A DNA stretch of 64,000 nucleotides from Prosthecobacter vanneervenii (GTDB taxonomy: Bacteria; Verrucomicrobiota; Verrucomicrobiia; Verrucomicrobiales; Verrucomicrobiaceae). Where the stretch lies: assembly GCF_014203095.1 (NCBI RefSeq), contig NZ_JACHIG010000011.1, forward strand, positions 62,001-126,000, in the 5' to 3' direction. The position numbers and the translations under genes are program-made. The stretch's first letter is position 1; each line of letters starts with the position of its first letter. This document shows positions 1,704 to 9,184 of the stretch, piece after piece. The notes below the pieces were generated by a model. The model did not search any database. It was not told the DNA's origin and saw nothing but the letters and a program-made list of their open reading frames with translations.

Positions 1704-3059
1704 ATGAAAAGCAAGTGGTTCAACATGTTAGGTGCATGCATCCTCCCGCCGCTGGTCGGGGTGGGGATGTGCAGCGGCATCATCCATTTGCTGAAGAATC
1801 ATGAGCTGTTTCGTGTCAATGTGCTGGCGGCACAGCCTGAGACTGGAAAGCTGAGGCATGGACGAGGCGGCGAGCACGGGGCCGAGGTAAGACCTGCCCT
1901 GCCTGCTAATGCTGAGTTCAGCCCGGTGAGGCCTGCGCCTGTGACGCCTGGTGCTGACAAGGCAGCTCTCCGGCGCGCTGAAGAGGCTGCAAAAGCAAAG
2001 ATGATGCCTGCCGTGCCGAAGGCTGAGAAGAAGGACCCAGAAATGGCGGTGGCCAAGAAGACCGAAAATCCCGTGCAGCCTAAAACCATCGTGGTGCAGG
2101 CTCCAGTCTGGCGACCCATCGTCGATCCCATCGCAGATCACTGGACCCGGCTGATGCCACGCACGGACGCTCTGCCGCAGGCTTACCAGGCAGTGCTGAA
2201 TGATGACGCCCAGCATCTGGCAAGACTGATAGCGATGGGCATCTCCCCCCATGAAAAGACATTGGGCGGGGATACGCCGCTGTGTGCAGCGGTGCGCATG
2301 GGGCGTGCAGATTGTGTGTATGTCCTGGCACTTTCCGGGGTGGACATGAATCAGCCAGCACATGAAAAGCAGCCGCCTATCGCGCTGGCGTCTCTGCGAC
2401 GGAATGCCCCGGTGCTGAAAGCACTGCTAGAATTTGGAGCGGACCCCAACACGCGCTTTAACACACCGGTGGCGAAGCAGGTCATCGACCGCTGCACCAT
2501 CAAGGATCTGCGAAATGCGATGGAGAGCGACCGGGGAATCACCCCACTGATCTGCTGTGCCGCACGCGGTGATGTGGAAGGAGCTGTAACCCTGATGCGT
2601 GCAGGGGCCAGGCCAGGGATGGGCACCACACGCTATCACCGCTACCCGATCAACTTTGCCGCTACGCAGGGCTACCTCTTCCTCATGCGCGTGCTTTTAG
2701 GTCGCGACCCTGACTCTGAGCCGGACATTCTGGTGACGGTGGATCTTTCCAGCCAGCGCGCCTGGGTGACGAAGCAGGGGCGCATCATCAACCACACGAT
2801 GGTTTCCACCGGACGTGAGGGCTATGGCACCCCGGCCGGGCGCTACGTGATCACGGACAAGCATACCTCGCATGTATCGACGCTGTATCATGTGAACATG
2901 CCGTGGTTCATGCGCCTGAACTGCAGCGCCATCGGTCTGCACAGTGGCTATGTGACTGGGCAGCCAGCCTCGCATGGCTGCATCCGCCTGCCGTATGAAA
3001 AGGCGAAGGAATTCTTTACCCAGGTGCGCGTAGGGGACGAGGTGGAGATCGTGTACTAG
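1704..3059 (+). CDS. Ankyrin repeat / L,D-transpeptidase (YkuD) fusion
   Basis: 451 residues. A membrane-spanning or signal segment lies near the N-terminus (residues 8-30), followed by an Ala/Pro/Lys-rich linker to about residue 135. About four ankyrin-type repeats follow (for example GGDTPLCAAVRMGRADCV, LLEFGADPN, GITPLICCAARGDVEGA, PINFAATQGYLFLMRVLL). A C-terminal YkuD domain starts around residue 340 (VTVDLSSQRAWV) and contains HSGYVTGQPASHGCIRL with the catalytic cysteine near 426. YkuD enzymes form 3-3 peptidoglycan cross-links or attach proteins to peptidoglycan in the periplasm. The ankyrin part is likely a periplasmic protein-interaction module; this is inference. The fusion is uncommon, since YkuD proteins more often carry LysM or peptidoglycan-binding domains. 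Confidence 0.9.
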   Translation: MKSKWFNMLGACILPPLVGVGMCSGIIHLLKNHELFRVNVLAAQPETGKLRHGRGGEHGAEVRPALPANAEFSPVRPAPVTPGADKAALRRAEEAAKAKMMPAVPKAEKKDPEMAVAKKTENPVQPKTIVVQAPVWRPIVDPIADHWTRLMPRTDALPQAYQAVLNDDAQHLARLIAMGISPHEKTLGGDTPLCAAVRMGRADCVYVLALSGVDMNQPAHEKQPPIALASLRRNAPVLKALLEFGADPNTRFNTPVAKQVIDRCTIKDLRNAMESDRGITPLICCAARGDVEGAVTLMRAGARPGMGTTRYHRYPINFAATQGYLFLMRVLLGRDPDSEPDILVTVDLSSQRAWVTKQGRIINHTMVSTGREGYGTPAGRYVITDKHTSHVSTLYHVNMPWFMRLNCSAIGLHSGYVTGQPASHGCIRLPYEKAKEFFTQVRVGDEVEIVY

Positions 3060-4644: not shown

Positions 4645-4676
4645 GGGAATAATCGCCGGGGCGGGTGCTCACACGC
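4645..4676 (+). promoter_or_regulatory. Putative ECF-sigma promoter of the bufferin-like operon
   Basis: The element GGGAATAATCGCCG begins at 4645. CTCACAC begins at 4668, at a distance typical of a -35/-10 pair (16-base spacer after GGAATA). The same arrangement, with 13 of 14 identical bases in the first block and CTC-NN-AC at the same offset, precedes the sigma factor gene at 7255. The leader to the precursor ATG would be about 65 bases. Assigning it to the nearby sigma factor is inference from this match and the gene context. Confidence 0.6.
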
Positions 4677-4740
4677 TGCGATGGCCGGAACCACCCGGCC
4701 TGCCGGAACTCCAAATAATACAACGCATACCATCACTGCC

Positions 4741-5001
4741 ATGAGCACCAAGCACATCATCGCCGCCGCCGCCTTCACCGGTCTCCTTTCCGGAGCCTAC
4801 GCCGCCCAGACCACCACCACGCAGAAGGCCGCCAGCCTTGGCGTCTCCATCGAGAAGATGGCAGACAAGGGCCAGCACACCTGCAAGGGACACAACGACT
4901 GCAAGGGCCAGGGCGGCTGCAAGTCCGGTGACAACGGCTGCAAGGGCAAGAACTCCTGCAAGGGCAAAGGCGGCTGCAACACCATGCCGAAGAAGCCCTG
5001 A
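4741..5001 (+). CDS. Bufferin-like six-cysteine secreted precursor peptide
   Basis: 86 residues from the ATG at 4741; an upstream in-frame ATG at 4681 would add a tail with no export logic. Residues 1-22 are a clean Sec signal peptide ending AYA-A. The mature region is Lys/Gly/Cys-rich, with cysteines at 48, 54, 60, 67, 73 and 79 (spacing 6,6,7,6,6), mostly in CKG triplets. This looks like two copies of C-x5-C-x5-C. The next genes encode a DUF692 enzyme and a DUF2063 partner, the known partners of bufferin-type copper-buffering peptides, in which the enzyme modifies cysteines before export. Placement in the BufA2-like group is inference from the CKG pattern. The product would be a periplasmic copper (or other soft metal) binder. 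Confidence 0.8.
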   Translation: MSTKHIIAAAAFTGLLSGAYAAQTTTTQKAASLGVSIEKMADKGQHTCKGHNDCKGQGGCKSGDNGCKGKNSCKGKGGCNTMPKKP

Positions 5002-5013
5002 TCCCCCCAGGCT

Positions 5014-5057
5014 GAATGGGTGGGGGTGTGCAAGCGTTCGCGTGCTCCCACCCATTC
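5014..5057 (+). promoter_or_regulatory. Strong stem-loop between precursor and modifying-enzyme genes
   Basis: Perfect 11-base arms, GAATGGGTGGG at 5014-5024 and CCCACCCATTC at 5047-5057, enclose a 22-base loop that can itself pair (GCAAGCG with CGCGTGC, one mismatch). No T-run follows directly, although a T-rich stretch appears about 25 bases later. It may be a partial terminator or an mRNA-stabilising element that makes the precursor more abundant than the enzymes, as is common in RiPP operons (inference). Confidence 0.65.
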
Positions 5058-5091
5058 GTCATTCTGAATTCTTCTCACGTTCTTTTTTTCC

Positions 5092-5937
5092 ATGCCTGCC
5101 AACCCACACAACGGCCACACTGATCTCGGCATCGGTCTTGGGCTTCGAGTGCCGCACTACAGGCACATCCTGGAGAAGAAACCGGTGTGCGACTGGTTTG
5201 AGATCATCTCCGAAAATTTCATGGTCGATGGCGGGCGGCCGCTGGAGATTCTGGACAGCATTCTGGAGCAGTACCGCGTGGTGCAGCATGGGGTGTCGAT
5301 GTACTTTGGCAATGCCGATCCGCTGAACCGGGAGCATCTGAAAAAACTGAAGCGGCTGGTGAAGCGCACGAATACACCGTGGCTCTCTGATCATCTCTGC
5401 TGGGGAAGCTTGGACGGGCGGTGCTCGCACGACCTGCTGCCCATGCCCTACACGATGAGCGTGGCCAGACACACAGCTGAAAAAATACGGCAGGCGCGCG
5501 ACTTTCTGGAGGTGCCCATCTGCGTGGAGAACGTGAGCAGCTACGCTGAATTCACCCAGAATGAGATGACGGAGTGGGAGTTTCTCAACGAAGTGGTGGA
5601 GCGTGCCGACTGCGGCATCCTGCTGGATGTAAACAACATCTATGTGTCGTCGCAAAATCATGGGTTTGATCCTTTTGAGTACCTAAGAGCTGTGCCGCAC
5701 CATCGCGTGGGGCAGATCCACATTGCCGGGCACACGCGGCTGGACCACGTGATCCTCGACACGCATGATCATCCGGTGCCGGATCCTGTGTGGGAACTTT
5801 ATGCGGCTGCGATCCAAGCATGCGGCAGGACCGCCACGCTGCTGGAGTGGGACGACAAGATTCCCAGCTTTGACGAGGTCCATGCCGAAGCGCTGAAAGC
5901 CAACCTTTATTTGCATGAGCATGCACACGCCGTCTGA
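5092..5937 (+). CDS. DUF692 multinuclear nonheme iron oxidase (BufB/MbnB-like)
   Basis: 281 residues, the normal size for DUF692 (MNIO) enzymes, which have a TIM-barrel fold with two or three irons and modify cysteines of ribosomal peptides. Family motifs are visible: LGIGLGLRVPHYRHIL and FEIISENFM near the N-terminus, HGVSMYFG, LSDHLCWGS, ICVENVSSY, ILLDVNNIYVS, QIHIAGH and DTHDHPVPDPVW, which supply the conserved His, Asp and Glu ligands. The most likely substrate is the CKG peptide encoded 90 bases upstream. The gene overlaps the DUF2063 gene by 23 bases, so the two are translationally linked. It acts in the cytoplasm before Sec export. Confidence 0.93.
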   Translation: MPANPHNGHTDLGIGLGLRVPHYRHILEKKPVCDWFEIISENFMVDGGRPLEILDSILEQYRVVQHGVSMYFGNADPLNREHLKKLKRLVKRTNTPWLSDHLCWGSLDGRCSHDLLPMPYTMSVARHTAEKIRQARDFLEVPICVENVSSYAEFTQNEMTEWEFLNEVVERADCGILLDVNNIYVSSQNHGFDPFEYLRAVPHHRVGQIHIAGHTRLDHVILDTHDHPVPDPVWELYAAAIQACGRTATLLEWDDKIPSFDEVHAEALKANLYLHEHAHAV

Positions 5938-6793
5938 GAAGCTACGAACGAATGAAGATCTGCGCCATCTCCAGCGCACGATGGCTGCCGCACTGATGCA
6001 GCCGCTGACGAAGCAGGATCGGCTGCGGAAGGGGACGCAGGCGGAGTTCATGGCGCCGAATGACCGTATGAGCGGATTTGAGCGGCTGGAGATCTATGCG
6101 CGGCAATATTGGTTTCGGCTGCTGGACTGTCTTTACGATGACTACCCGGCACTACGGGCGTTTTTGGGCGAGCGTCGATTTCATCAGCTCTGCCGGGACT
6201 ACCTGGCGCAGCATCCCAGCACGTCATGGACTCTGAGGAATCTGGGGAGCGAGCTGTCTGCTTTCATCACAGAGCCCAGGGCGCGAGACATTGCCCGGGT
6301 GGAATGGGCGCAGACGCTGGCCTTTGATGAGGCACAGAAAAAGCCGGTGCCTGTGGATGATCTGCTGGGACAGGATCCCGCAACGCTGCGACTGGGGGTG
6401 CAGCCCTGTGTGGTGCTGTTGCAGACCGAGCATGCGGTGGATCACTTCATCACGGCTTTGAAAAAAGCAGATGCTGATGTGCGGGGATCCGCCAGCCAGG
6501 CTGTGTCGGAAGCACCGGCCCGAGCGGAAGTGGGGAAAGCGCCGAGACTCAGGCGTGAGCGTGTGCATCTGGCGGTGCACCGCCATGACAACCAGCTTTA
6601 CTTCAAACGGCTGGCTCCCGAGGCCCATGGCCTGCTCTGCGCACTAAGGGATGGTCTGCCGCTGGCCGAGGCCATCGAGGCCGCGCTGGCCGAGGCCGGC
6701 GCTGAGACTGACTGGCCAGTGCAGATCCGAGACTGGTTCACCGAATTTTCCCAGCTCGGCTGGTTCGTCAAAAACTCCCCCCGCAAATCATGA
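5915..6793 (+). CDS. DUF2063 MNIO partner protein (BufC-like)
   Basis: 292 residues. The N-terminal domain (residues 18-110; for example RLEIYARQYWFRLLDCLYDD then YPALRAFLGERRFHQLCRDY) is the DUF2063 DNA-binding-like domain found next to DUF692 enzymes, where it recognises the precursor leader and forms a complex with the oxidase. The C-terminal half (after about residue 200) contains winged-helix/RRE-like segments typical of BufC relatives. The start at 5915 lies within the end of the DUF692 gene. The stop overlaps the DoxX start (ATGA). The identification rests on the N-terminal domain and its position. Confidence 0.88.
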   Translation: MSMHTPSEKLRTNEDLRHLQRTMAAALMQPLTKQDRLRKGTQAEFMAPNDRMSGFERLEIYARQYWFRLLDCLYDDYPALRAFLGERRFHQLCRDYLAQHPSTSWTLRNLGSELSAFITEPRARDIARVEWAQTLAFDEAQKKPVPVDDLLGQDPATLRLGVQPCVVLLQTEHAVDHFITALKKADADVRGSASQAVSEAPARAEVGKAPRLRRERVHLAVHRHDNQLYFKRLAPEAHGLLCALRDGLPLAEAIEAALAEAGAETDWPVQIRDWFTEFSQLGWFVKNSPRKS

Positions 6794-7248
6794 AACCCTG
6801 GACACTTGCCAACTCTCTTCTCGACCGTGCCGCCAGCTGGCTGCCGAATCCTTTTCTCCTGAGCATCCGCCTCTACTGGGGATGGCAGTTTTTCCAGACG
6901 GGGAAAGGCAAGCTGAGCGACATCAGCGCGCCCACGGCCTTTTTCACCGAGCTGGGCATTCCGTTTCCGAAGCTCAACGCCTACCTGGCCGGCGGAACGG
7001 AGTGTCTTGGCGGGCTGCTGCTGCTGGCAGGGCTTTTTTCCCGGATGACCTGTGTGCCGCTCATTTTCACCATGCTGGTGGCTTATGGCACGGCGCATCT
7101 GGATGTGGTCAAAACGATCTGGTCGGATCCTGACTCCTTTGTGACGGCACCGCCTTTTCTCTTTCTGCTGGCTGCGATGACCGTCTTCATTTTTGGACCG
7201 GGCAGGCTTTCTGTGGATGAGCTGCTGCTGCGCCGAAAAAAATTTTGA
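6790..7248 (+). CDS. DoxX family membrane protein
   Basis: 152 residues with four predicted membrane helices (about 22-40, 63-84, 88-105, 120-138). The sequence SIRLYWGWQFFQTGKGKL followed by AYLAGGTECLGGLLLLAG is typical of DoxX/DoxD-like proteins. DoxX genes commonly sit at the end of DUF692-DUF2063 operons. The role is not established; a link to membrane thiol or quinone redox has been proposed for the family. It overlaps the preceding gene by four bases, so it belongs to the operon. Confidence 0.88.
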   Translation: MKPWTLANSLLDRAASWLPNPFLLSIRLYWGWQFFQTGKGKLSDISAPTAFFTELGIPFPKLNAYLAGGTECLGGLLLLAGLFSRMTCVPLIFTMLVAYGTAHLDVVKTIWSDPDSFVTAPPFLFLLAAMTVFIFGPGRLSVDELLLRRKKF

Positions 7249-7254
7249 AAAGCC

Positions 7255-7286
7255 GGGAATAAACGCCGCGGTGCCGCCTCCTACCT
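7255..7286 (+). promoter_or_regulatory. Putative autoregulated promoter of the ECF sigma gene
   Basis: GGGAATAAACGCCG begins at 7255 and CTCCTAC begins at 7278, both aligning without gaps to the element at 4645 upstream of the precursor gene. ECF sigma factors usually activate their own promoter, so a shared motif at the operon and the sigma gene is what that model predicts. It is not experimentally supported here. Confidence 0.6.
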
Positions 7287-7307
7287 GCATCTCCCGCCCA
7301 TGAATTC

Positions 7308-7907
7308 ATGGAACTCGCCCTTCAATTCGGCATTGAACTGCCTGCAACCCGCACGATACCTCGCTGCGTGACTGATCCTGTGCCCAGCTTTGAGCAGATC
7401 GTGGATGCCCACTATCAGGGGCTCTACCGCTTTGCGCTGAGCATGAGCCGACGCGAGGCGACGGCGCAGGACCTTGTGCAGCAGACCTTTTTGCAATGGG
7501 CAAAGAAGGGGCATACCCTCAGAGATGCCTCCAAGGTGAAGACCTGGCTCTTTACCACGATCTACCGTGAGTGGCTGGCCATCGCGCGGCGGGAGAAGAA
7601 GTACGAGGAGGTGGAGTTTGAGCCCGAGGTGCATGGTGCCACGCAGAAGGAGGACGATGGCGAAAACCCTCGTGTGGACAGCGCCACGCTGCAGACCGCG
7701 CTGGAAGAACTGGAACCGAACTACCGTGCTCCGCTGGTGCTTTTTTATCTCAAAGAGCTATCATACCGCGACATCGCCGAGACGCTGGGCGTGCCCATCG
7801 GCACGGTGATGTCCCGACTTTCCCGCGCCAAGGACAGTCTGCGTGCCATTTTGCATCGCCTCGAAAAAAGCACTCCTACCAACATCATCCCCATCACCGC
7901 ATCGTGA
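7308..7907 (+). CDS. ECF-type RNA polymerase sigma factor
   Basis: Up to 199 residues. Region 2 is visible as YQGLYRFALSMSRREATAQD with DLVQQTFLQWAK. Region 4 is ELEPNYRAPLVLFYLKELSY followed by the helix-turn-helix RDIAETLGVPIGTVMSRLSR. The family start is probably GTG at 7368 (VTDPVPSFEQIV...), 60 bases in; neither start has a clear ribosome site. The gene follows doxX by about 60 bases and carries its own promoter-like element identical to that of the precursor gene. It overlaps the next gene by four bases (GTGA), the usual sigma/anti-sigma coupling. Its likely regulon is the bufferin-like operon, perhaps in response to copper or redox stress (inference). Confidence 0.93.
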   Translation: MELALQFGIELPATRTIPRCVTDPVPSFEQIVDAHYQGLYRFALSMSRREATAQDLVQQTFLQWAKKGHTLRDASKVKTWLFTTIYREWLAIARREKKYEEVEFEPEVHGATQKEDDGENPRVDSATLQTALEELEPNYRAPLVLFYLKELSYRDIAETLGVPIGTVMSRLSRAKDSLRAILHRLEKSTPTNIIPITAS

Positions 7908-8629
7908 ACCGCGAAGAAGCCAGACTCGAACTCGACGCCACGACGCTCCGTCCGCAGGATGCGTCGCCGGAGGCGCGTGCGATGGCGGAGAGCGATCCCG
8001 AGCTGGGTGCGTGGCTGGAGAAGCGCACGGCGTTTGATGAACAGGTGGCCGAGGTCTTTGCGGCAACGGTGCCTGCGGGTTTGCGCGAAAGCATTTTGCA
8101 AAATGCGCGGAAGCCTGCGCGACGCCCGATGCGATGGATGATTCCCACCCTGGCTGCGGCGGCTGCTGCTATTGCGCTGGGCTGGACGCTGCTGTGGCCG
8201 GTGGAAAGCAACATGCCTGGATGGCAGGCAGAGTCTCTTGCCGCAGTGACGAAGGTGGAATATGGCGTGTCCAAGGTGCACCTGTCGCGTGACTTTGAGG
8301 CCATCAAAAAGATGCTGGTGGCTGACCAGTCACCTGCGCCTGAGCATCTGCCCGGCAAGGTGGGGGCCATGCCTGTGCTGGCCTGCAAGTGCATCAAGGT
8401 GGCCGGGCGCTCGGCCTCGATCATCTGCTTTGAGATTGAGCCCGGGAAGGAAGCCCACCTGGTGGTGATGAACAATGACGGCATGTCCAACGTGCCGCCG
8501 CAACTGCAGCCACAGTTTAAGTCGTGCAAGAACTGGAACATGGCCAGCTGGAGCGACGGCAAGCAGAGCTTCATTCTGGCCACGAGGGCGGATGAGGCGG
8601 CGCTGAAGAAGCTGTTTGGGCTGGCGTGA
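7904..8629 (+). CDS. Membrane-anchored anti-sigma factor with cysteine-bearing outer domain
   Basis: 241 residues from a GTG start overlapping the sigma stop. Residues 1-75 are cytoplasmic and acidic, with no zinc-finger H-x3-C-x2-C motif. One membrane helix spans about 77-98. The remaining 140 residues lie outside the membrane and contain CKC at 161-163 plus Cys175 and Cys208. Position, topology and overlap identify it as the partner anti-sigma. I do not recognise the outer domain as a named family. The cysteine cluster could bind copper or report thiol oxidation, which would fit control of a metal-buffering operon; this is a hypothesis. Caulobacter-type systems use an unrelated multi-pass NrsF anti-sigma instead. 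Confidence 0.75.
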   Translation: MNREEARLELDATTLRPQDASPEARAMAESDPELGAWLEKRTAFDEQVAEVFAATVPAGLRESILQNARKPARRPMRWMIPTLAAAAAAIALGWTLLWPVESNMPGWQAESLAAVTKVEYGVSKVHLSRDFEAIKKMLVADQSPAPEHLPGKVGAMPVLACKCIKVAGRSASIICFEIEPGKEAHLVVMNNDGMSNVPPQLQPQFKSCKNWNMASWSDGKQSFILATRADEAALKKLFGLA

Positions 8630-8632
8630 GTG

Positions 8633-8923
8633 CTACAACAAGCTACGCCAGTTTCGTGGGTCTCGCTTTTCGTGAACTACGCCAACCACCCACACTGTTT
8701 CTTCAAGAATCCGGTAGATAATTAAATATGGGAATGTCCGCATCAGATAGCGTCGAGTCCGACGCGAAAGCGGCTTGCCGGTGGTCGGATACCGGGACAA
8801 CCATGATGTGGCGGCTTCAAGGCATTGCAGAAAATGGGCCGAAGCTTTTGCTGAGCGCTCCTGGTAGTAAGAGAAAGCTTCCAGCGACTCTGCGCGAGCA
8901 GCATCCGTGAATAGCACCTTCAT
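8633..8923 (-). CDS. ParE/RelE-type toxin
   Basis: 96 residues, basic. The pattern LFTDAARAESLEAFSYYQE, then GKPLSRRTRRYLMRTFPYLI and a C-terminal VVGVVHEKRDPRNW is typical of the ParE/RelE superfamily (plasmid stabilisation protein). ParE toxins act on DNA gyrase and RelE toxins cleave mRNA; the HEKRDP-x-W ending is common in the ParE-like branch. Its ATG overlaps the stop of the upstream antitoxin gene (TCAT on the plus strand, 8920-8923), so the two are translationally coupled. Confidence 0.85.
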   Translation of the reverse strand: MKVLFTDAARAESLEAFSYYQERSAKASAHFLQCLEAATSWLSRYPTTGKPLSRRTRRYLMRTFPYLIIYRILEETVWVVGVVHEKRDPRNWRSLL

Positions 8924-9138
8924 GCACGCGACATGCCTCTGAGCTCGGTCAAAACATCCGATGCAGAATGCAGTTTCATCTCACCGTGCTCGACTGCATC
9001 CACCCGGTCTTCCATCTCGCCAGCAAGTCGAGCTTCCCATGCGGCATCGCATGAGTCGATGATTAGCTCATCCAGCAATGATGCTTGCTCAGTGGCTGGC
9101 AATTGCAGAAATGCCTGACGAAGAACAGATGCGGTCAT
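8920..9138 (-). CDS. Addiction-module antitoxin (TIGR02574-like)
   Basis: 72 residues from the methionine at 9138; a longer form could start at 9171. The sequence FLQLPATEQASLLDELI, then AWEARLAGEMEDRVDAVE and a closing segment with SASDVLTEL, matches the short acidic 'addiction module component' family usually found beside ParE/RelE toxins. It neutralises the toxin and probably represses its own promoter. The pair sits between the anti-sigma gene and a cytochrome c gene. Confidence 0.82.
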   Translation of the reverse strand: MTASVLRQAFLQLPATEQASLLDELIIDSCDAAWEARLAGEMEDRVDAVEHGEMKLHSASDVLTELRGMSRA

Positions 9139-9184
9139 GTGCGATGATAATTCTTCACCAGAAACGAGCAAGAACCAATCTAAG

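Follow-up and report, generated by a model that had tools for sequence, protein, structure and literature searches.

A Buf2-like bufferin operon of Prosthecobacter vanneervenii shares a promoter-like element with its ECF sigma factor gene and with redox-repair genes

What do bufferins do beyond copper tolerance, and which signal induces them? Both questions bear on a six-gene locus in a 64,000-nucleotide stretch of Prosthecobacter vanneervenii DNA (contig NZ_JACHIG010000011.1, positions 62,001 to 126,000; hereafter the window). The genes lie contiguously on the plus strand and encode a cysteine-rich precursor peptide (BufA), an MNIO maturase (BufB), a DUF2063 partner, a DoxX-family membrane protein, an extracytoplasmic function (ECF) sigma factor and a membrane anti-sigma factor (Table 1). 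Three pairs of frames overlap, BufB with DUF2063 over 23 bases and both DUF2063 with DoxX and ECF with anti-sigma over 4, an arrangement as in operons. A first-pass annotation of the window had listed these genes in this order as a bufferin-like operon of Verrucomicrobiota that carries an ECF sigma of its own and an anti-sigma unlike NrsF, and gene calls, family scans and relatives agree with that description. It overlooked a promoter-like element shared by the operon and the sigma gene, the wider likely targets (dsbD, msr, tlpA, doxX) and the fact that the anti-sigma is commoner than bufB in the genus. We propose that the sigma/anti-sigma pair probably acts as a periplasmic switch, sensing thiol or methionine oxidation (or copper), which makes a Buf2-like bufferin alongside DsbD/MsrA repair. 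What is new is the control, that is, the promoter-like element and the wiring of the sigma and anti-sigma factors, a regulatory variant parallel to SigF/NrsF and RpoE2 with different parts.

We compared by eye the two gaps of the locus and found GGGAATAAWCGCCG...CTCNNAC before bufA, at position 4645, which is also the first base of the locus, and before ecf, at 7255, giving the consensus GGGAATAA-N15/16-CTCNNAY. A composite pattern derived from these same two sites matched twice in the window with up to three mismatches and never in 100 shuffles. Across the 6.66 Mb genome, the 14-base GGGAATAAWCSCCG occurs without mismatch at these two positions only, with three more sites at one mismatch; the spaced pattern has five sites and its reversed form none. 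Three of the five lie beyond the locus, one of them before dsbD. The site at C1:879149 precedes a large exported-type protein of no class that we checked and the site at C9:39822 a further sigma-70 gene; C6:68639 has a one-base variant. Four other genus genomes (G002, G012, G013 and G021) have the element before both bufA and ecf, and one that has lost bufA (G001) has it ahead of ecf and at what remains of bufB; no exact GGGAATAA form turned up at the G017 and G018 loci. With one-base variants included, the bufA element is present in most genus loci and in other families. In a loosened form it stands ahead of 28 of the 77 bufA genes in 80 named bufferin loci (the best 80 of 339 matches, some on short contigs), against 0/77 for the reversed form (p=3.7e-10), and several bufferin loci without an adjacent ECF gene still have it before bufA or doxX. 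Shuffles, reversed-pattern controls and recurrence led us to reject a chance origin of the element. A literature search pairing GGGAATAA with an ECF sigma returned no match. In one relative, the interval from doxX to ecf (L240:9156-11310) contains a second bufA, preceded by a variant element of its own, TGGAATAA-N15-CTCACAC, and a gene for a DUF255 thioredoxin-like protein (PF03190).

We further investigated which genes lie behind the element in a phylum sample of 387 genomes, 86 of which carry the spaced pattern. Genomes of the class hold 78 sites against 8 for the reversed control, and in the other genomes its frequency is close to background (51 sites, spread over 44 genomes, against 37 reversed). 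The first genes behind the class-level sites are ecf (14), bufA (7), DoxX-type (6), MsrA (4), MsrB (2), DsbD (3), TlpA-like (3), other thioredoxin, peroxiredoxin or rhodanese types (5) and lytic polysaccharide monooxygenases (LPMO; 2). Altogether, 46 of the 78 lead into such genes, against 1 of 30 distinct sites outside the class (from 31 sites in the 30 loci L146-L175), where the single match is weak and peroxiredoxin-like. When only the ECF, BufA and DoxX proteins of the window served as queries and its own two sites were excluded, the counts were 24/76 against 0/30 (p=1.6e-4); in a Pfam scan of twenty site-adjacent proteins, every one matched a family above cut-off. The element is also more frequent in genomes with the anti-sigma (28/54 against 58/333 without it, p=1.9e-7), and this holds within the class (26/50 against 16/76, p=4.6e-4). 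At one out-of-class locus (L158, genome G288), an anti-sigma frame begins 13 bases after the site; the anti-sigma was outside the first-gene query set.

In P. vanneervenii itself, dsbD (with DsbD_N, DsbD_TM and thioredoxin domains) has a 13/13 element starting 54 bases upstream, as does dsbD in 7 of 19 other genus genomes, making 8 of 20. Its msrA, the product of which has a signal-like N-terminus, is preceded by TGGAATTC-N15-CTCCCAC, and msrA elements reach at least 11/13 positions in 11 of the 20 genus genomes. In both comparisons the shuffles preserve no more than single-base composition, and some of the upstream stretches start within the coding sequence, the protein match having begun late. 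Since the element thus also precedes repair genes for oxidised extracytoplasmic proteins, copper buffering looks like part of an oxidation-repair response.

Which proteins would read and gate this element? The ECF sigma matches PF04542 (region 2, 46.1 bits) and PF08281 (region 4, 62.4 bits) and has an N-terminal extension that is kept in genus-mates. The anti-sigma is predicted to consist of a helical cytoplasmic N-terminus, one hydrophobic span (about residues 79-97) and a periplasmic domain like the C-terminal domain of RseB. Cys161, Cys175, His185 and Trp216 are invariant among 24 homologues; in a second, overlapping set of 20, both cysteines and the tryptophan are invariant and His185 nearly so. 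The further cysteines of the window protein, Cys163 and Cys208, are not generally conserved. Zinc anti-sigma (ZAS) factors of the MseR/RsrA type carry the motif H-x3-C-x2-C, which is absent here, all four cysteines lying past residue 160, and a search with PF06532 (NrsF) gave no match at E<=1. Judged by sequence, the protein is neither an NrsF nor a zinc anti-sigma. The contrast with NrsF drawn at first pass thus holds for the layout (one span, no PF06532) and fails for the two conserved periplasmic cysteines, which are common to both. Against Pfam the anti-sigma gave sub-threshold matches only, for example DUF3379 (PF11859) at 22 bits with a cut-off of 33.2, a family that matches 12 of 20 members at E<=0.01. 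Literature searches for DUF3379, and for ECF sigma, Verrucomicrobi and RseB in combination, found no paper.

Predicted alone, the periplasmic domain reached a pLDDT of 93.8 and a pTM of 0.90. Its six top structural matches are RseB/MucB C-terminal domains (Z 7.6-6.8, root-mean-square deviation 3.1-3.9, 87-97 aligned), followed by an entry at Z 5.7, and another MucB entry, 6in8, reaches only Z 4.3; the top six Foldseek matches are RseB as well (probabilities 0.96-1.00, E 0.02-0.08). We grade this resemblance as suggestive, because a Z under 8 may mean a mere common arrangement. RseA/RseB and MucA/MucB combine an anti-sigma of a single membrane span with a separate RseB or MucB. The window protein is like them in its one span and its predicted periplasmic fold, and unlike them in being one polypeptide, in its two invariant cysteines and in lacking a sequence match. 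In the predicted structure, a tight turn connects the strand of Cys161 (158-166) to that of Cys175 (169-179), and His185 lies in the strand after these; the cysteines could plausibly come near enough to form a disulfide or, together with His185, a metal site.

These features suggest the following mechanism. In the resting state, the cytoplasmic helices of the anti-sigma would hold the ECF sigma. Thiol oxidation or Cu(I) binding would alter the periplasmic domain, with its two invariant cysteines and nearly invariant histidine, and free the sigma, which would then read GGGAATAA-N15/16-CTCNNAY promoters: that of its own gene, as positive feedback, and those of the bufA-bufB-bufC-doxX operon, dsbD and probably the exported msrA. 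BufB and the DUF2063 partner would modify the six-cysteine peptide in the cytoplasm, and the product, exported by Sec, would bind Cu(I) in the periplasm while DsbD and MsrA repair oxidised cysteines and methionines. The analysis itself shows the genes, the recurrence of the element, the genes downstream of it in relatives and the invariant residues, together with the predicted fold; the pairing of element and sigma, the way in which control runs, the signal, and the modification, export and metal of the peptide are inferred.

The same residues could instead make a dedicated copper switch, in which Cys161, Cys175 and His185 serve as Cu(I) ligands and the redox genes come under the same control because copper oxidises periplasmic thiols. 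All three residues are conserved in 24/24 homologues, with the two cysteines on neighbouring predicted strands. Genes for LPMO_10 polysaccharide monooxygenases, a copper-enzyme family, follow the element in two genomes of different families (L184 and L214), which is a possible further copper link, and in the genus-mate G016, which lacks bufB, a gene just upstream of the ECF pair (L386:220-735) encodes a product with a signal-like N-terminus and a weak match to the heavy-metal-associated domain (PF00403, 29.7 bits). Bufferins are also described as buffering copper (PMC12452194). We nevertheless regard this alternative as possible and rather doubtful: His185 is only nearly invariant in the second anti-sigma set, no copper exporter or multicopper oxidase was seen among the first genes by eye (no systematic search was made), and the commonest targets beyond ecf, bufA and doxX are thiol and methionine repair genes. 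It is because of these target genes that a redox signal is favoured over a purely copper one.

At its core the locus is a bufferin/captophorin cluster of the ordinary sort, and it represents no new kind of metallophore. The precursor has a hydrophobic N-terminus ending, by eye, in AYA, and six cysteines in CKG motifs with gaps of 5, 5, 6, 5 and 5; an in-frame ATG is also present at 4681, and we took 4741 as the start because relatives support it. Among the precursors of relatives, 100 of them distinct, exactly six cysteines occur in 64, 62 of which also share the gaps, and the remainder have 2 to 11. Six conserved cysteines are reported for 90 percent of Buf2 precursors (PMC12452194). The first-pass claim of a different peptide pattern is right with respect to Buf1, but the sequence has the six-cysteine Buf2/Cys-Lys layout, which is already known and is shared with relatives, and a novel precursor pattern was rejected. 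The NCBI BufA2 model NF050166 gives 37 bits, below its cut-off of 60, and we therefore call the peptide Buf2-like rather than a BufA2 equivalog; the model matches 10 of 12 Verrucomicrobial precursors at E<=0.001. No plasmid-borne relatives of the precursor were found by tblastn at E 0.01. At L022 (G029), a precursor with nine cysteines and, by eye, a twin-arginine-like N-terminus lies beside BufB and DUF2063 genes, which suggests export by Tat instead of Sec.

BufB, the product of the single MNIO gene found in the genome, matches PF05114 (353 bits, cut-off 25) and the NCBIfam BufB model NF050167 (347.1 bits, cut-off 310). Its Asp255 aligns with a phenylalanine of 3BWW, a Histophilus MNIO, and is invariant in 11/11 sequences; the feature named for Cys-Lys MNIOs is Asp for Phe at FonB residue 250, and the comparison here was made through 3BWW. 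Aspartate is described at this position in MNIOs of the Cys-Lys captophorin group, where Lys-Cys enzymes have phenylalanine (PMC13097082). The DUF2063 protein matches PF09836 (65.8 bits, cut-off 27.2) and falls below the cut-off of the HvfC model NF050145 (35.4 against 142), and the DoxX protein passes both its family model (69.2 bits, cut-off 23.6) and the HvfX model (80.4 bits, cut-off 80). The full gene order recurs in six other genus genomes as well as in other genera and families, and the neighbourhood check proposed at first pass found the precursor kept beside the enzymes across this range. The closest named relatives of BufB come from metagenome-assembled genomes (MAGs) labelled Prosthecobacter sp., Verrucomicrobiaceae bacterium and Verrucomicrobia bacterium. 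It is very unlikely, in our view, that the peptide is an unmodified cysteine-rich metal binder and that the MNIO acts on something else. Modification is not visible from sequence and the BufA2 score of 37 against 60 would be compatible with such a variant, but the precursor lies directly upstream of BufB across families, BufB exceeds its own cut-off, and Asp255 is the residue reported for Cys-Lys MNIOs (PMC13097082). For thiooxazole formation, the modification expected in such clusters, the same paper gives a mass loss of about 4 Da per modified cysteine and a band at 305 nm.

We then asked how tightly the sigma pair and the bufferin genes are associated. The anti-sigma is present in 19 of 26 genus genomes searched, with a close one (E below 1e-60) in 17, and BufB scores above cut-off in 7 of 24, with a fragment in an eighth. 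We read nine anti-sigma loci in genus genomes that lack bufB, and none of these stretches contains bufferin genes. Eight have an ECF gene ahead of the anti-sigma (at the ninth the contig ends), and in seven the element lies ahead of ecf, matching 12 or all 13 of its 13 positions. At one locus (L023, G001), bufB and bufC are truncated and bufA and doxX gave no match, with the ECF and anti-sigma genes intact and both elements still there; this is a natural decay of the bufferin operon. Since the anti-sigma is commoner than bufB and the pair is intact without bufferin genes, the sigma pair seems to be the more stable partner in the genus and the bufferin operon the one that varies. Among 32 phylum-sample BufB loci above cut-off, some on short contigs, 8 have both ECF and anti-sigma genes in the cluster (in one case divergent, in one differently ordered), 2 have ECF but no recognised anti-sigma and 22 have neither. 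A same-strand pair accompanies 19 of the 80 named loci, a figure biased to near relatives since these are the best-matching loci, and two of the 19 (L264 and L269) come from one MAG. In five Acidobacteriota loci (L258, L276, L301, L302 and L311), a different ECF, matching weakly and with no anti-sigma recognised beside it, lies behind the Buf2-like clusters; these are possibly yet another wiring.

Could the pair then be a general envelope-stress module that merely adjoins the bufferin operon, with bufA no target of it? We consider this quite unlikely. The bufB-less genus genomes have the pair on its own, some with the same 332-aa gene behind it as in the window, and no adjacent pair exists at 24 of the 32 phylum and 61 of the 80 named bufferin loci, but the bufA element recurs in most genus loci and in other families, even where no ECF gene is adjacent. 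The absence of the pair at those 24 loci weighs against the oxidation-responsive switch as well, as do several other points. Two of the five sites in the P. vanneervenii genome precede a gene without obvious link, 32 of the 78 class-level sites lead into none of the listed gene types, and the exact element is absent from 26 of the 54 genomes with the anti-sigma. The element before the genome's own msrA agrees at only 10/13 positions, equalled by 5 of 200 shuffles. The loosened pattern of the 28/77 count was chosen after the sites had been seen, the functional classes of the 46/78 count were partly picked in the same way, and the counts and tests ignore shared ancestry. The resemblance to RseB stays under Z 8, with no sequence match in PDB or Pfam. 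Finally, the argument as a whole is drawn from sequence.

How does this wiring relate to known systems? The locus resembles Buf2 bufferins and Cys-Lys captophorins (BufA2-BufB2-BufC2) in its six cysteines in CKG-type motifs, its MNIO with a DUF2063 partner and its DoxX protein, and differs in a precursor below the BufA2 cut-off and in the linked ECF/anti-sigma pair; a published survey reports sigma factors in Buf1 and not Buf2 clusters (PMC12452194). Caulobacter SigF is reported to act through GTAACC-N16-CGAA on its own gene and on a DUF2282-DUF692-DUF2063-DoxX operon, and to be held by the membrane anti-sigma NrsF, with two conserved periplasmic cysteines and six membrane segments (PMC3511200). 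Common to both systems would be an ECF sigma acting on its own gene through a promoter shared with the bufferin operon, next to a membrane anti-sigma with two conserved periplasmic cysteines. The Caulobacter system is unlike the present one in its Buf1 (DUF2282) precursor, its promoter and its six-segment anti-sigma, and its msrA homologues are described as unchanged (PMC3511200). In Haemophilus exposed to HOCl, msrAB and a doxX-COG3220-DUF2063 cluster are controlled by RpoE2/HrsE, a sigma factor described with ECF group 13 (PMC7907618), and the Neisseria SigmaE/MseR regulon is reported as similar (PMC3240639). These share with the window an ECF sigma together with methionine sulfoxide reductase and a doxX-MNIO-DUF2063 cluster, although the control is only proposed here; they differ in a small anti-sigma related to the ZAS type (67 aa in Haemophilus) and in EGKCG-type precursors (oxazolin, gonophorin; PMC13097082). 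Among the papers listed by our search for bufferins or captophorins together with Verrucomicrobiota, none treats both; the figures and supplement of PMC12452194, which may well list Verrucomicrobial Buf2 clusters, lay outside it.

The locus may thus belong to a class-wide Verrucomicrobial stress regulon, a proposal that we judge about evenly poised. An ECF sigma, paired with a fused RseA-RseB-like anti-sigma whose two cysteines sense redox state or Cu(I), would read the element before dsbD, msrA/B, tlpA, peroxiredoxin and doxX genes and before Buf2-like operons that would have been repeatedly gained or lost, a further and possibly independent wiring beside SigF/NrsF and RpoE2/MseR. That different regulators, in a different phylum, appear to group the same type of cluster with methionine and thiol repair genes argues that bufferins belong to envelope-oxidation defence, with copper as a catalyst. 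The promoter sequence and the two cysteines make the regulatory reading directly testable, and the element offers a route to unlinked targets in Verrucomicrobiota.

Table 1. Features of the locus, in window positions
Feature	Position	Strand	Basis
Promoter-like element 1, GGGAATAA-N15-CTCACAC, upstream of bufA	4645-4674	+	Pattern search, relatives
Precursor peptide BufA, 86 aa	4741-5001	+	Hydrophobic N-terminus, six Cys
MNIO (DUF692) maturase BufB	5092-5937	+	PF05114 and NF050167 matches
DUF2063 partner protein (PME type 1 / BufC-like)	5915-6793	+	PF09836 match
DoxX/HvfX-family membrane protein	6790-7248	+	DoxX and HvfX model matches
Promoter-like element 2, GGGAATAA-N15-CTCCTAC, upstream of ecf	7255-7284	+	Pattern search, relatives
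ECF sigma factor, regions 2 and 4	7308-7907	+	PF04542 and PF08281 matches
Anti-sigma factor, one hydrophobic span	7904-8629	+	Alignments, predicted fold of periplasmic domain

Two neighbours flank these features. Upstream, on the plus strand at 1704-3059, ankyrin repeats are fused to a C-terminal YkuD L,D-transpeptidase domain, a gene that adjoins the locus in genus-mates too. Immediately after the anti-sigma gene, and running the other way (8633-9171, minus strand), comes a ParE-type toxin gene (PF05016, 48.7 bits), accompanied by a short possible antitoxin frame with no Pfam match.

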